Below are positions 2,374-25,441 of a DNA stretch of 25,951 nt, in pieces; within the stretch, counting starts at the first letter, position 1, and each line of letters starts with the position of its first letter. The notes beneath the pieces are model-generated. The model ran no database searches, was not told the DNA's origin, and saw only the letters and a program-made list of their open reading frames with translations. Location of the stretch: NCBI GenBank assembly GCA_030753015.1, contig JASMDC010000038.1, forward strand, positions 1-25,951, in the 5' to 3' direction. This stretch comes from Candidatus Undinarchaeales archaeon (GTDB lineage Archaea; SpSt-1190; JASMDC01). The translations under genes and the position numbers were made by a program.

Positions 2374-3084
2374 ATGGCGTCTGGTAATAGTGAGGTCGAC
2401 GATTTCATGGCCTCACTGGGTATCAGCACGGAAGAGCTGGACCAGTTGCAGATCAAGACGGACGACGGCTGGGAGTCCGCCTCATCATACGATCCAAAGA
2501 GATGGCAGGACAAACAGGCAACTCGGACAGATCCAGCCCATGGCCAGTATGACACCAAGAACAGTGCGTCATACTCCTCGCTAAAAGCCATGGAGATGGA
2601 CGAGCGGCTCGACATGTACAGTGGCATCAACGTCGGAGGGAATCACCTCATCCACGTAACAACGGACGAAGGTGTGGAGGGCATCCTGAGGGACGGCTAC
2701 ATGAAGGCCGGCGGCGCACAGAAGTACGCGAGCGAGCGTGGCAGCCGCACAGGACGTCCCATAGGAAGGGGCATCTATACCCTTGACACTCACGACGATC
2801 CTTCCCTTGATCAGATCCTGACACCCAACTTCCTCGGTTTTGCGTTCGAGAAATTCCATAATGAGGGCCTCAGGGTGCTGAGGATACCGAAGTACAATCC
2901 CACATCAGGAGCCAACCTCAGGTACGACCTCCCGTCCCGACCGGATCCCGGAGAGCACGGGTACGCCATCATCCAGCAGCAGCAGCTCCCCTATGACAAG
3001 GTCGAGACCCTGGCGTTCAACGGAGCGGGCAAACTGGAGTGGGCACCGATCTCGGAGATCGCGGGGGGCGGTTACTCGCTCTAG
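2374..3084 (+). CDS. ADP-ribosyltransferase-like protein (candidate)
   Basis: The 236-residue product has a polar N-terminal region of about 85 residues. Its core resembles ART folds of the PARP/KptA/DarT kind. LIHVTTDEGVEGILRDGYM (92-110) matches the pattern H-x-T...GI-L-x-x-G that binds NAD in those families (H94, T96). GRGIYTLDT (131-139) resembles the PARP G-x-GIY(F) strand, with Y135 in the conserved Tyr place. HGYAIIQQQQLPYDKVE (195-211) resembles the last core strand, where PARPs carry Glu; here the nearest residues are E194 and Q201-Q204. If correct, it would transfer ADP-ribose from NAD to a protein, nucleic acid or small molecule. No signal peptide, membrane segment or obvious antitoxin partner is seen. 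The fold assignment rests on short motifs only, so other functions remain possible. Confidence 0.55.
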   Translation: MASGNSEVDDFMASLGISTEELDQLQIKTDDGWESASSYDPKRWQDKQATRTDPAHGQYDTKNSASYSSLKAMEMDERLDMYSGINVGGNHLIHVTTDEGVEGILRDGYMKAGGAQKYASERGSRTGRPIGRGIYTLDTHDDPSLDQILTPNFLGFAFEKFHNEGLRVLRIPKYNPTSGANLRYDLPSRPDPGEHGYAIIQQQQLPYDKVETLAFNGAGKLEWAPISEIAGGGYSL

Positions 3085-16927: not shown

Positions 16928-17638
16928 CTATCCTTCGTCGAACTGGTCCAGTGTGCGCATTCCCCTTGCCAGTCGCTCACCTGCGATCCCCGGTCCTTCC
17001 AGGCCACGAATGGTCTCGAGCACATTCTTGACAAACCGGTCCTCGTCGCGTCCCATCTCGATGATGAGCCGGTGTTCTTTGGGGAGAGAGGTGAGCCGGC
17101 GCTGGATCTCTTCGGCCAGTTTCACGTCGACCGGACGGACACGCCATCCCCTTTCGAGAGAGGCGCGGTCAAGCGAAGCGGCGACATCCTCGACGATGAT
17201 GATAGCGAGGTCCGGGGTCACGGCGAAGGGTACCACGGCTGTCTTCAACCATGATTTCAATCGTCGATATTCCTCGCTCTCGGCATCGTCCTCCTGCAAT
17301 CGGGGGACGAGCGTCGCCGCGATAGTGTCCATGTACCCGGGCTTCACCGCCCAGCGTCCTGCTTTGATTGCCGGGGCGATAGAGCGCTCGGTGAGGAACG
17401 CCGCATCAGCGGACATGAGGAGGACCTCGGCCACGGGGGAGATGCGTAGGAACGGGTCTGCGGAATACCCGTGCGTGAGGGCTGTACCAGCGATACCTGC
17501 GGAGAAACGTGGGACCTTTACGAGGTCAACGCCCTCCTCCTCGAGGGCTGCGGATAGCTTGGCGGCGATGCGCGCTGCCGTCCCGACCACGGCCGATTCG
17601 ACGGTGATGAACCGTCCCCAGATGATGTTGTCTTCCAT
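16928..17638 (-). CDS. Thymidylate-kinase-like protein lacking the P-loop (probable pseudoenzyme)
   Basis: The 236-residue product aligns by eye along its length with thymidylate kinase. GRFITVES (8-15) matches the first strand, SPVAEVLLMSADAAF (67-81) the P-x-AE-LL-ADRA helix, IAPAIKAGRWAV (87-98) the I-x-PAL-x-G-x-V segment, and TPDLAIII (about 140-148) the PDL strand. Catalytic parts are gone. The Walker A consensus EGxDGxGKS/T reads ESAVVGTAA (14-22), without Lys or Ser/Thr in place. The DR(Y/H) motif that binds dTMP reads PGY (100-102). The frame is intact and the fold-defining residues are kept, so this looks like a retained non-catalytic homologue rather than a decayed gene. It is last in an operon, with GGTGA (17646-17650) overlapping the upstream stop. 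Its role may be regulatory or structural near DNA metabolism. Confidence 0.72.
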   Translation of the reverse strand: MEDNIIWGRFITVESAVVGTAARIAAKLSAALEEEGVDLVKVPRFSAGIAGTALTHGYSADPFLRISPVAEVLLMSADAAFLTERSIAPAIKAGRWAVKPGYMDTIAATLVPRLQEDDAESEEYRRLKSWLKTAVVPFAVTPDLAIIIVEDVAASLDRASLERGWRVRPVDVKLAEEIQRRLTSLPKEHRLIIEMGRDEDRFVKNVLETIRGLEGPGIAGERLARGMRTLDQFDEG

Positions 17639-17644
17639 GTTCTT

Positions 17645-18136
17645 TCACCCCTTCTTCTCATCGATTGGCATTGGTGCGTCGCAGTACGGACATGCGCTCC
17701 TTCCTGACGGTATGGGTGCTCCACAGGAGGAGCATTTCCCCCCGCTCCGCCGGAACATCGCCATCTCGACGAGTTCCTGCTCGCGCATGTACCCGCCAAG
17801 GACGCCCCCGAGAACACCGAGAACGCCAACATAAGTGACGATGATCACAAGGATGATGAAGCCGGCACTACGCACGAGGTCACCTATGATCGGGATGCCC
17901 TCAAGGATGCCGACGATCATCTCGGACAGGAAATATGCAGGAACGACCATGATGGCCGTCATGAGAAGACCGGTGACGAGACCGCCCCACACACCTTGAG
18001 CTGACAGGTAGCCTGCGGCGAAGCCGCCGATAAGGGGGGCGAGCTCCTCGACGAACGGTACGAACAGGACGACGAGGCATATCGCAACGCCGGCAAGAGC
18101 GCCGATCAGAACATCCGATGCACGCAAACAACCCAC
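17645..18136 (-). CDS. Four-TM protein with C-terminal zinc ribbon
   Basis: The product of about 160 residues has four Gly-rich hydrophobic segments (about 8-30, 33-50, 52-72, 90-116). The first part resembles archaeal DUF5518-like small membrane proteins (IGGFAAGYLSAQGVWGGLVTG). It is followed by a zinc ribbon CSSCGAPIPSGRSACPYC (about 134-151), two CxxC pairs of the kind fused to many archaeal membrane proteins. The start is either GTG at 18136 or TTG at 18127. The latter has GAGGTG properly placed before it, while the GTG has none. The gene lies one base after the DUF373 gene and seven bases before the thymidylate-kinase-like gene, so all three form one operon. Function is unknown. Confidence 0.78.
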   Translation of the reverse strand: MGCLRASDVLIGALAGVAICLVVLFVPFVEELAPLIGGFAAGYLSAQGVWGGLVTGLLMTAIMVVPAYFLSEMIVGILEGIPIIGDLVRSAGFIILVIIVTYVGVLGVLGGVLGGYMREQELVEMAMFRRSGGKCSSCGAPIPSGRSACPYCDAPMPIDEKKG

Positions 18137-18137
18137 C

Positions 18138-19226
18138 TCAATCGAGGATGAAGCGACGACGCACGATCATCTGGACCACGGCCGTTCCGAAGATGACCAC
18201 GAGTCCCACAGCGATGCTCGAGGCGACGCCCTGGACGCCGAACTCGGGATTCAGGATGGGCTCGGTGGCCTTCTGGGCCATGAACGCGATGGTCACCGTA
18301 TACACCACCAGAGTGAAGTACCGTAGCAGCTTTCCGGTGTCGGGGAGCGCGTCGATGGACTTGCCCAGGAGCGTGAAGATGACGGCTGCCGAGAACCACA
18401 CGACCGCGCCGGCCACGAATGCACCGGCGGCCTGCATGGGATCGTTCCCACCCCGCTCCATCTCGCTCAGTCCCTGCGTGATCGAGAAGAGGATGAGGAT
18501 GATGGTGATCAGGTAGGTGATAAAAGAGATCCTCGCCTCGCGGTAGGCGTTGAAGACCTCGCCGAAGAAGTCCTCCACGAACCGTTCCATGTGGAATCCC
18601 TTGAGGACGAGATAGGTCCCAAGGACACCTGCGAGGATGCGCGAGCCCTCCCATCCGTAGATGAAGAAGACGAGCGCGGCCAGCCCCGGTACGCCAAGGA
18701 AGAGCGCGGAGAGGTTGGGATCGAGTGTGGCCTTCTTGATGAACTCGGCCGTCATATAGTAGAATCCCTCGAGGCGCTCGGACTGCTTGACCACCACGCG
18801 ATCTACGGAGTCTATCTTCACTCTCGACTCCACCATCGGAGTGACACTCTCGTCCTCGGCACCGTCCGTCACAAGGATGACCGACTTGGCCTTGGTCTTT
18901 GCGAGGACGTTGTCGAGCTGAGCGGAGAGCTTCATGTCCGACGTTGTCCCCACTGAGACATCGCCGGTGATTGCCGCGATGAAGAACCGCGTGATGCCAT
19001 CCTTACTCTGAGCGAGCTCCCGGTAGACACGAACGCCCTCGAAGAGTGTGTTTGCATCGGTATCGGTGGGATCGGCAAGGGCCAGCTTGACGGCGGCCTT
19101 GATCACGTCCTCCTCGCCCATCACAGGCCCGTCTATCTCTGCCTTTCGGCCGAGGTCGTCGTCCCGGTCGATGACTAGGATGAGCCGAACGTCCTCCTCT
19201 GCCCCCTCTGTAGTAGAAGCGGCCAT
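18138..19226 (-). CDS. DUF373-family archaeal membrane protein
   Basis: The 362-residue product matches DUF373 (PF04123). VIDRDDDLGRKAEIDGPVMG (18-37), KLALADPTDTDANTLFEGV, ITGDVSVGTTSDMKLSAQLD, ILVTDGAEDE and QSERLEGFYY are the conserved blocks of its soluble N-terminal half. The C-terminal half has about six TM segments, beginning near LSALFLGVPGLAALVFFIYGW. The family is archaeal and uncharacterised; the acidic DRDDD and DGAEDE motifs suggest metal or nucleotide binding. The ATG at 19226 is leaderless, with TATA-like CTTATATCTT (19251-19260) about 29 nt upstream. The same element probably drives the divergent ssDNA-binding gene. The frame continues upstream, but only as antisense of that gene. 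Confidence 0.9.
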   Translation of the reverse strand: MAASTTEGAEEDVRLILVIDRDDDLGRKAEIDGPVMGEEDVIKAAVKLALADPTDTDANTLFEGVRVYRELAQSKDGITRFFIAAITGDVSVGTTSDMKLSAQLDNVLAKTKAKSVILVTDGAEDESVTPMVESRVKIDSVDRVVVKQSERLEGFYYMTAEFIKKATLDPNLSALFLGVPGLAALVFFIYGWEGSRILAGVLGTYLVLKGFHMERFVEDFFGEVFNAYREARISFITYLITIILILFSITQGLSEMERGGNDPMQAAGAFVAGAVVWFSAAVIFTLLGKSIDALPDTGKLLRYFTLVVYTVTIAFMAQKATEPILNPEFGVQGVASSIAVGLVVIFGTAVVQMIVRRRFILD

Positions 19227-22387: not shown

Positions 22388-23161
22388 ATGGGAAAGAAAC
22401 TCCGTCTCTCTCGCATCAGTACCAATGGGCGATTCGTAACCGTACCTATGGACCACGGCGTGTCCATGGGCCCTATCAAAGGCATTGTCGATCCAATCTC
22501 AACCGTCTACTCGGTCGCCGAGGCGGGAGCCACGGCAGTGTTCCTCCACAAGGGGCTCGCTCGAATGCTGACGACTGCACCGTGCGGGCTCATTCTCCAT
22601 CTTTCGGCATCAACATCGATGGCGTCCGATCCCAACGCGAAGGTACTTGTGGCTGGTGTCGAGGACGCTATTCGCCTTGGGGCCGATGCGGTCTCCATCC
22701 ACGTCAACGTGGGAGCCCACACCGAGGAAGAGATGCTCGCGGACCTGGGGATAGTATCATCGACATGCGAGGAGTGGGGTCTGCCCTTAGTGGCAATGAT
22801 GTACCCGCGGGGACCCGGGATCGACAATCCGTTCGATCCGGACCTCGTCGCCCATGCCGCCCGACTCGGCGCGGAACTGGGTGCTGACGTGATCAAGACA
22901 TCGTACACAGGGGATACCGACTCGTTCGAGAAGGTCATCGAGGGCTGTCCCGTCCCGGTCATCATTGCAGGGGGTCCGCGGTGCGATACTCCTCGCGACA
23001 CTCTCGAGATGGTCCGCGGAGCGCTCGACGCAGGTTCCCAGGGAGTCGCGTTCGGAAGGAACGTGTTCAGTTGTGAAGATCCCGGTACCATGGTGCGTGC
23101 CTTGCGTGCCATAATCGTCGACGATGTGAGCGTCGATGAGGGCCTGGAGGTCATGGGATGA
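22388..23161 (+). CDS. aroA': 2-amino-3,7-dideoxy-D-threo-hept-6-ulosonate (ADH) synthase
   Basis: ADH synthase condenses L-aspartate semialdehyde with a 6-deoxy-5-ketofructose phosphate in the archaeal first step to dehydroquinate, replacing DAHP synthase. The 257-residue product belongs to the DhnA/class I aldolase family. The active-site sequence VPMDHGVSMGP (19-29), MMYPRGPG (137-144) with the catalytic Tyr, and IKTSYTGD (169-176) with the Schiff-base Lys (K170) are all present. The phosphate-binding IIAGGPR and FGRNVF complete it. A close relative is archaeal fructose-bisphosphate aldolase, but the next gene encodes dehydroquinate synthase II, which favours ADH synthase. The stop overlaps the next start by four bases. 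Confidence 0.92.
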   Translation: MGKKLRLSRISTNGRFVTVPMDHGVSMGPIKGIVDPISTVYSVAEAGATAVFLHKGLARMLTTAPCGLILHLSASTSMASDPNAKVLVAGVEDAIRLGADAVSIHVNVGAHTEEEMLADLGIVSSTCEEWGLPLVAMMYPRGPGIDNPFDPDLVAHAARLGAELGADVIKTSYTGDTDSFEKVIEGCPVPVIIAGGPRCDTPRDTLEMVRGALDAGSQGVAFGRNVFSCEDPGTMVRALRAIIVDDVSVDEGLEVMG

Positions 23162-24168
23162 AGGAGCTGTGGGCCCTTCTCCAGCCAGATGAAGCGTGGG
23201 TCAGGACTGTCCGCGAACTTGGTGTGACGACCTTTCTTGCCCTCGGTGAGGATGTGAAATGGGCGCTCGAGCACCGTGAAGCCCTTGGCATCACCGTTGC
23301 CGCACCGGACCCCGAGGCTGACCTGATCGTTACCACGGACCCTGCCAAGGCGGCCGGTGGCGTGCTCTATGTCAAGCTCTCAAGTGCTGAAGAACTTAAG
23401 ATGCTGGAGAGCTGTGAGGCGTCCACGGTAATCGTCGAGGCATCCGACTGGCGGATCATCCCGCTCGAGAACATCATAGCATCCTCTCTCCGCGTGCTGG
23501 GGGTCGTCTCCGATGTCGAGGAGGCCAGGCTGTTCGCCACCATCCTTGAGAAGGGTGTGGACGGGCTCGTGGTCCGTGACGATATCGAGGCCGTGCGTGA
23601 TATGCTGAGCGAGCAGGCACGCCACATCGAGCTCGAGCCCGTGGAGATCTCCGAAGTGAGAGAGATCGGGGAGGGTGACCGTGTGTGCATCGATACCTGC
23701 TCCATCCTTGAGCCGGGCGAGGGCGCTCTCGTTGGGAACCAGGGTGCATGCCTCTTCCTCGTGCACGCCGAGAACGTCGAGAATCCCTATATCGCTACAA
23801 GACCGTTCAGGGTGAACGCGGGACCGGTCCATGAGTACGTTCTTGTGGGCGACCGTACGCGCTACCTCTCCGAGCTCGAAGCCGGTGAGCCGCTCTTGGT
23901 CGTCAGGACCGACGGGGCCACTCGCATCGTCACCGTGGGCCGGGCCAAGATCGAGCGTCGCCCTTTGGTCCTTGTCGTGGCCAAGATGGGTGATATCCCC
24001 GCAAAGACGGTACTCCAGAACGCCGAGACCGTAAGGCTCGTGCGGCCTGACGGGAGTCTTGTGCCCGTGACCGAGCTCAAGGCAGGTGACGAGGTACTTG
24101 CCTATCGCGAGGCCCCTAAGGGGCGTCACTTCGGTATGGCCGTCGAAGAGACCATCGTGGAGAGATGA
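23158..24168 (+). CDS. aroB': 3-dehydroquinate synthase II
   Basis: This NAD-dependent enzyme converts ADH to 3-dehydroquinate by oxidative deamination and cyclisation, the second step of the archaeal route. The 336-residue product has the family hallmarks: VIVEASDWRIIPLENIIA (with WRIIPLEN), RVCIDTCSILEPGEGALVGN, LFLVHAENVENPYIATRPFR and VNAGPVHEYVLV. A C-terminal TYLSEL-like domain is recognisable as RYLSELEAGEPLLVV. Length is close to the methanogen enzyme. The ATG overlaps the stop of the ADH synthase gene (ATGA), so the two are translationally coupled. EPSP synthase follows after one base. Confidence 0.95.
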   Translation: MKELWALLQPDEAWVRTVRELGVTTFLALGEDVKWALEHREALGITVAAPDPEADLIVTTDPAKAAGGVLYVKLSSAEELKMLESCEASTVIVEASDWRIIPLENIIASSLRVLGVVSDVEEARLFATILEKGVDGLVVRDDIEAVRDMLSEQARHIELEPVEISEVREIGEGDRVCIDTCSILEPGEGALVGNQGACLFLVHAENVENPYIATRPFRVNAGPVHEYVLVGDRTRYLSELEAGEPLLVVRTDGATRIVTVGRAKIERRPLVLVVAKMGDIPAKTVLQNAETVRLVRPDGSLVPVTELKAGDEVLAYREAPKGRHFGMAVEETIVER

Positions 24169-24169
24169 A

Positions 24170-25441
24170 ATGGACGCGGTCGTGCGACCGGGTGAGGTCA
24201 CAGGGAGCGTCCGGGCCCCTCCGTCGAAGAGCATCAGCCATCGTGCCCTACTACGAGCCCTTCTTGCTCATGGCCGTTCGACCATCCAGAACTTGAGCCG
24301 ATGTGCGGACGTCGTTGCCACACTAGAGGCCTGCCGTACCTTCGGAGCAGAGGTCGGAGAGGACCCTGAGCTGATAACGCTGCACGGGTGCGGACCCGAA
24401 CTGACCGTCCCTGATGGGGCGATCGACTGCGCGAACTCGGGAACGACACTGCGCTTCTTCACCGTGGCAGGATGCCTGGCTCCGGGAGCTGTCCGGCTCA
24501 CAGGGGACAGTTCCTTGACGCAGCGGCCGATGGAGCCGTTGCTCGCAGCGCTCAGGGGATTGGGTGCCGACGCACGCAGGGACGCCGACGGCAGCGTCAC
24601 CGTCCGAGGGCCCTTGAAGCCCGGCTCGACCATATTGGACGCCTCGGCGAGCTCCCAGTACCTCTCGGCGATGCTCCTGGTGCTCCCCGTGCTCGAAGGG
24701 GACTGGCGGATCGATCTTGCAGGGCCCCTGGCATCCCGCGGGTACGTCGACCTCACGCTCGAGGCCCTTGACGATCCTTCGTTTGCGCGGATTGATGAAG
24801 GTGGCGCTACGATCAATGGTGGGATCAAGTACCCGTCAATCGAGCGGACCATCGAGGGCGACTGGTCCGCCGCTGCCTTCCCCGTGGCCGCTGGACTCCT
24901 GGGTGGCGAAGTCCGGGTCCAAGGCCTTGTGAAGTCCTCCCGTCAACCGGACCGGGCCCTGTTGGGACTCATCGACCTCTTGGACGGCGAGGTATCATGG
25001 GAAGGGGACACACTCATCGCACGGAGATCCGAGCTCAATGGGACCGAGCTCGACGTGTCCGACACGCCGGACCTATTCCCCGCTCTCCTCCTGCTCGCAG
25101 CACGCGCCCGGGGTACGACCACCATTACCGGGACCGCCCGACTGCGGTACAAGGAGTCTGACCGGGTCTCCACCTGCACAGACGTGCTCAGGGCCATGGG
25201 GGCCGATATAGCCGTCGGTGATGACCGGGTGGTCGTACGGGGAGTGCCCTCACTCCGTGGTGCCGAGGTCACCTCGCATGGGGACCACCGTGTCGCCATG
25301 ATGGCCGTCACGGCAGGGCTCGGTGCGACAAATGCCACGATGATCCAGGGCATGGACTGCTTGGATGTGTCATGGCCGGGATTCCTTGAGGCCGTGAAGG
25401 GGCTTGGGGGACTGGTGAGGACTACCGCTCCTCTTCCCTGA
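24170..25441 (+). CDS. aroA: 3-phosphoshikimate 1-carboxyvinyltransferase (EPSP synthase)
   Basis: EPSP synthase joins shikimate-3-phosphate and phosphoenolpyruvate in the sixth shikimate step. The 423-residue product has all signature residues: PPSKSISHR (17-25; K20, S21, R25), NSGTTLRFF, GDSSLTQRPMEPL (catalytic-loop Arg), SASSQYLSAMLL, GDWSAAAFP, DTPDLFPALLL, RLRYKESDRV and HGDHRVAMM. These lie in the two inside-out domains of the family. The usual glyphosate-site NAGTAMR is NSGTTLR here, with the Thr-Met-Arg replaced, a common variation in archaea. The ATG at 24170 follows the stop of the dehydroquinate synthase by one base. The C-terminal end overlaps the convergent regulator by 20 bp. 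The remaining shikimate genes are not in this window. Confidence 0.96.
   Translation: MDAVVRPGEVTGSVRAPPSKSISHRALLRALLAHGRSTIQNLSRCADVVATLEACRTFGAEVGEDPELITLHGCGPELTVPDGAIDCANSGTTLRFFTVAGCLAPGAVRLTGDSSLTQRPMEPLLAALRGLGADARRDADGSVTVRGPLKPGSTILDASASSQYLSAMLLVLPVLEGDWRIDLAGPLASRGYVDLTLEALDDPSFARIDEGGATINGGIKYPSIERTIEGDWSAAAFPVAAGLLGGEVRVQGLVKSSRQPDRALLGLIDLLDGEVSWEGDTLIARRSELNGTELDVSDTPDLFPALLLLAARARGTTTITGTARLRYKESDRVSTCTDVLRAMGADIAVGDDRVVVRGVPSLRGAEVTSHGDHRVAMMAVTAGLGATNATMIQGMDCLDVSWPGFLEAVKGLGGLVRTTAPLP

Follow-up and report, generated by a model that had tools for sequence, protein, structure and literature searches.

A probable thymidylate kinase pseudoenzyme in an archaeal genome that retains its P-loop-bearing sister

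A gene within the window, by which we mean the whole analysed stretch of 25,951 nucleotides, encodes a thymidylate kinase (TMK) homologue that has lost its ligand-binding residues within an intact reading frame. We termed the product pTMK (pseudo-thymidylate kinase). Thymidylate kinase catalyses a near-universal step to dTTP. pTMK resembles thymidylate kinases (Tmk, EC 2.7.4.9, PF02223) in the order of its secondary structure elements, its predicted fold and its kept structural positions; however, it lacks the P-loop, EP, the ADR arginine, DR and YQ, and it scores below the Pfam cut-off. The explanation we favour, with a probability of about 0.4, is that pTMK is a lineage-specific TMK duplicate turned pseudoenzyme, now a protein partner that most likely pairs with its active sister. 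If this is true, the retention of a dead pTMK as an intact gene would indicate that the TMK fold is reusable without nucleotides, and pTMK would be a simple, testable pseudoenzyme born within one archaeal lineage in which the active sister is still present. The gene and the altered sites are as follows.

16928-17638, minus strand: pTMK, 236 residues, characterized by sequence, tree and structural model.
17570-17596, minus strand: degenerate P-loop of pTMK, SAVVGTAAR at residues 15-23, aligned with GATGVGKTT of the paralogue.
17504-17509, minus strand: RF at residues 44-45 (R44, F45), at the site of the substrate-binding 'EPT' motif, whose E and P are lost; EP is present in nearly all TMKs.
17402-17404, minus strand: A79, replacing the arginine of the dTMP-binding ADR motif (human R76) in the alignment.
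17336-17341, minus strand: PG at residues 100-101 (context KPGY), replacing the DR motif in the alignment.
17309-17314, minus strand: TL (T109, L110), replacing the conserved YQ in the alignment.

The pTMK ORF runs from ATG to stop over 236 codons and is free of frameshifts, as the initial annotation had stated. Its P-loop site reads ESAVVGTAAR where TMKs read EGxDGxGK(S/T)T; thus the GxDGxGK(S/T) signature of the family is absent, and the position of the P-loop lysine is occupied by alanine. PGY stands in place of DR(Y/X). Both of these losses, reported earlier as SAVVGTAA and PG, were borne out by the alignment. The earlier account nevertheless understated the damage: the dTMP site has also lost EP, the ADR arginine and YQ, which are replaced by RF, A79 and TL. 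In human TMPK, helix alpha-3 carries F72 and R76, which bind at the thymine/dTMP site (PMC8679000); their counterparts in pTMK are M75 and A79.

Conserved columns were compared against 25 archaeal TMKs. pTMK keeps 0 of 13 ligand or catalytic columns (six in the P-loop, two each at the EP of EPT, at DR and at YQ, and the arginine of ADR, a set drawn from knowledge of TMK structures) and 26 of 48 other conserved columns (Fisher p 0.0002, a descriptive value only, because the 13-column set was picked after the alignment had been seen). At the same 13 columns, 11 residues are kept in P0001, a paralogue from the same genome, and 9 in the relative L037. The kept structural positions of pTMK are G8, I11, E14, G51, E71, L74, A77, D78, I87, P89, G94, Y102, P142, D143 and R158, and the TMK segments that had been listed as retained (GRFITVE, AE-LL-SADAAF, I-PAI-G and PDL) are all present. 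From this pattern, dTMP kinase activity and nucleotide binding in the TMK manner are predicted to be absent from pTMK.

Compared directly with PF02223, pTMK gave an E value of 0.15, under the Pfam cut-off, and Pfam/NCBIfam scores were rejected as the sole basis for naming it because they were too weak. A PDB sequence search with pTMK returned TMKs at E 0.01-0.08 mixed with sigma factors (matching the tail at E 0.01, taken as chance) and was not used. The best match of pTMK was P0001, with 33-34% identity and an E value of 1.9e-27; P0001 itself matched PF02223 with 99 bits. In a tree of 42 TMKs, pTMK was sister to P0001 (97/89), a placement to be read with the tree program's warning that long branches are less surely placed, although the sister of pTMK is also its best identity match. 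The pair joined L037 (100/98), which is encoded in a genome outside the phylum of the pTMK host. The pTMK branch was 3.19 long, vs 0.52 for P0001. Common ancestry of pTMK with TMKs is evident from the P0001 match, the tree and the PF02223 match of P0001. P0001 and L037 fall in one clade with pTMK; however, both retain GK(T/S)T and DR or ER, which pTMK has lost. These sequence relationships are best explained if pTMK arose in this lineage by duplication of a second TMK type, one that bears a P-loop and is still represented in the genome by the sister gene.

The host genome (G000; 3.85 Mb, 117 contigs, estimated contamination 5%) contains four PF02223 matches over the cut-off: L001, P0001, L003 and L004. 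L001 answers the question raised by the initial annotation, whether a separate canonical tmk exists. Two of the four are the following.

L001, elsewhere in G000: canonical tmk, P-loop GIDGSGKGT.
G000:C42:2068-2799 (= L010:1495-2226): P0001, second TMK type, with GATGVGKTT and DRYYDS.

By their motifs (EGLIGVGKT or EGLIGAGKT, ERS), L003 (G000:C71:17359-17880) and L004 (G000:C65:8552-9061) resemble deoxynucleoside kinases. P0001 has T at the P-loop acidic position of TMKs, lacks the F of alpha-3 and carries a C-terminal extension; since the acidic residue and F are missing, its substrate may also differ. L037 is flanked by HD-hydrolase-like and NUDIX-like genes, as read from its locus, and these neighbours suggest nucleotide salvage or clean-up. 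A C-terminal tail apparently shared by pTMK and P0001 (E-L---TL--F--G) was scored equally by 242 of 5000 shuffles, a borderline result, and is not claimed. The 3.85 Mb of G000 contrast strikingly with the 0.6-1.1 Mb of nine other genomes of its phylum, and a search of G000 for an archaeal 16S gene found none.

The best-kept element of pTMK is the following helix.

17363-17437, minus strand: helix alpha-3 of pTMK, residues 68-92.

Identity between pTMK and P0001 was 15/25 in alpha-3 vs 45/154 in the remaining core (p 0.003), and the two share the segment DPFLR - AE-LL - AD-AF-TER-I-PA-K-G. In human TMPK, alpha-3 forms the monomer-monomer interface (PMC8679000). As a control, P0001 was compared with other TMKs and showed 45% identity in alpha-3 vs 31% overall; alpha-3 is thus well conserved across the TMK family, and its retention in pTMK is not specific proof of pairing.

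An AlphaFold2 model of pTMK, for which the input alignment consisted of 34 viral TMKs, had pLDDT 82 and pTM 0.80. The best 50 listed Foldseek and VIA-align matches of this model were all TMKs; the best Foldseek TMK match had an E value of about 3e-8, and comparison with solved TMKs gave Z 18.5-20.4, rmsd 2.0-3.2 across 175-204 residues and TMt ≤0.8. A single-sequence model was uninformative (pLDDT 37), and the predicted fold therefore depends in part on the homology supplied. The structure prediction called for by the initial annotation returned a TMK fold, from a model built on TMK sequences.

Several features indicate that pTMK has been maintained as a coding gene. When the P0001 DNA was mutated neutrally down to 34% identity, none of 300 runs remained stop-free, and the mean was 6 stops. 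GC contents at the three codon positions of pTMK (0.675/0.456/0.726) lie within the range of its neighbours, as does its codon score of 0.237; the antisense ORF scored 0.069. An RBS-like site precedes the gene.

17646-17651, minus strand: GGGGTG, RBS-like, 7 bp before the pTMK ATG and directly next to where the upstream gene ends.

Long neutral drift of pTMK is therefore unlikely. pTMK may have become functionless recently, having been under constraint for a long time before, although a very recent loss is unlikely because so many ligand sites have changed.

The full and selective loss of ligand residues, the coding-like gene, the modelled TMK fold and the presence of a separate canonical tmk, together with other active-looking relatives in the same genome, give good support to the pseudoenzyme reading of the initial annotation; pTMK is very probably a pseudoenzyme. 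The regulator role named as the other option is plausible as a hypothesis.

pTMK is the third and last gene of a tightly packed minus-strand run whose spacers measure 1 and 6 bp; the two genes ahead of it are the following.

18138-19226, minus strand: DUF373 protein, 362 residues, with TM-like segments; first gene of the run; the family is widespread in archaea.
17645-18136, minus strand: DUF5518 membrane protein, 163 residues, with three TM-like segments and a C-terminal zinc ribbon; gene upstream of pTMK.

This run is a putative operon and apparently lineage-specific. The gene order supports an operon, and the co-expression with two membrane proteins that had been proposed is a prediction from it. 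RPA/RadA are neighbours of pTMK, as had also been noted; however, they lie on the opposite strand and therefore probably form a divergent unit, which is weak evidence of a function shared with pTMK. A sigma-70 promoter/terminator scan gave nothing above chance and was discarded, this promoter type being wrong for archaea. DUF373 is present in 154 of 247 archaeal genomes. In the archaeal loci inspected, neither a DUF5518 gene nor a TMK was seen beside it, and no TMK-DUF373 adjacency was found in about 20 genomes whose gene positions were compared by eye (nearest distance about 9 kb, in G201). Any partnership between pTMK and DUF373 is thus recent.

Orthologues sharing the motif loss, which the initial annotation had proposed to look for, were not returned by any search. 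None was found in 9 genomes of the same class, in a protein search of 150 archaeal genomes, in a two-row profile search of 394 archaeal genomes, in 34 genomes of the phylum of L037, in two genome-contig scans or in viral-contig scans with pTMK and with the pTMK-P0001 pair. All translated TMK relatives retain GK(S/T/G) or at least GK. A generic TMK scan of viral contigs yielded P-loop TMKs that served only as alignment rows; because its patterns favour P-loops, it is not evidence for the absence of dead forms. A full-text search of a partial literature collection found no paper containing both 'thymidylate kinase' and 'pseudoenzyme'.

We propose that pTMK derived from the P-loop-bearing second TMK type by lineage-specific duplication, that it would no longer bind ATP/Mg or dTMP in the TMK fashion, and that it would act as a protein partner without catalysis of its own. 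In the most likely mode, the retained alpha-3 face would pair pTMK with the active sister kinase P0001 in a 'prozyme'-like manner, and pairing would tune or localise P0001. Dead paralogues are known to activate partner enzymes in trypanosomatids (PMC5201418, PMC3663545). The AdoMetDC prozyme and the deoxyhypusine synthase paralogue of these organisms resemble pTMK in being dead duplicates of an oligomerising family beside an active enzyme in the genome; they differ in having unrelated folds and in that their pairing is experimentally proven (PMC5201418, PMC3663545), whereas that of pTMK is inferred. Pairing with P0001 as the main role of pTMK is put forward tentatively. Counting against it are the failure to find an orthologue in the genomes searched, the family-wide conservation of alpha-3 and the position of the pTMK gene away from P0001, and the membrane-protein operon partners favour an adaptor about as much as pairing. 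Because these partners are membrane proteins, they could place a pTMK complex at the membrane. The more elaborate version, a TMK 'prozyme' in which dead pTMK, encoded with two membrane proteins, pairs with the active second TMK and sets the supply of dTTP or another nucleotide at the membrane, is doubtful.

The same operon lends itself to a possible, though not a likely, alternative that is little less probable than pairing: the dead TMK fold may be an adaptor or sensor subunit for its own DUF373 and DUF5518-zinc-ribbon proteins, independent of nucleotide kinases. The tight spacing of the three genes, with the RBS-like site abutting the preceding gene, and the TM-like segments in both partners are in keeping with this role. 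A precedent is NDUFA10, a nucleoside-kinase-fold accessory subunit of respiratory complex I; here too, a protein folded like a nucleotide kinase and not known to be active is associated with membrane proteins (for pTMK, putatively through the operon). However, NDUFA10 is a member of the dNK family PF01712 in which the P-loop and the residues for the nucleotide are intact, and it binds dGTP (PMC9226000), all unlike pTMK, and the wide occurrence of DUF373 with no TMK or DUF5518 gene adjoining it in the inspected loci also argues against this alternative.

That pTMK is an early-stage pseudogene, functionless and still uninterrupted, is improbable. The failure to find orthologues, the long, fast branch and the further loss of 22 of the 48 conserved columns outside the ligand set are all compatible with decay; however, the losses are concentrated on ligand sites, codon positions are coding-like and preceded by an RBS-like site, and stop-free divergence to about one-third identity is unexpected under neutrality, although a long constrained phase beforehand is possible. 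It is very improbable that pTMK is active, or binds nucleotides, through a rebuilt non-canonical site for another substrate. The LID-side residues G164-W165-R166 and R158, common to pTMK and P0001, count in its favour, but GK(S/T), the acidic residue and arginine of DR, EP and the ADR arginine are gone, and inspection of the pTMK sequence by eye revealed nothing resembling a P-loop elsewhere. A sequencing, assembly or binning artefact, the fault by which the initial annotation might have been overturned, has a negligible probability and is excluded in practice. The assembly does consist of 117 contigs with some estimated contamination; against this, pTMK shares only about one-third identity with its nearest relative, about 13 separate ligand sites have changed within an open frame, and the sister gene P0001 lies in the same bin. 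Nor is the P-loop restored by a change of frame: one frame gives SNRPWSGRQRAS (in an overlapping ORF at 17518-17832) and the other, read by eye, RIGRGRDGSAH.

Two further observations concern other parts of the window. An ORF of 236 residues at 2374-3084, containing HVTTDEGVEGILRDGYMKAGG...GRGIYTLDTHDD, recalls ADP-ribosyltransferase-like folds, as an impression only. In the region 22388-25441, judging from the translations, shikimate entry genes of the archaeal type precede an ORF at 24086-25441 that resembles EPSP synthase.
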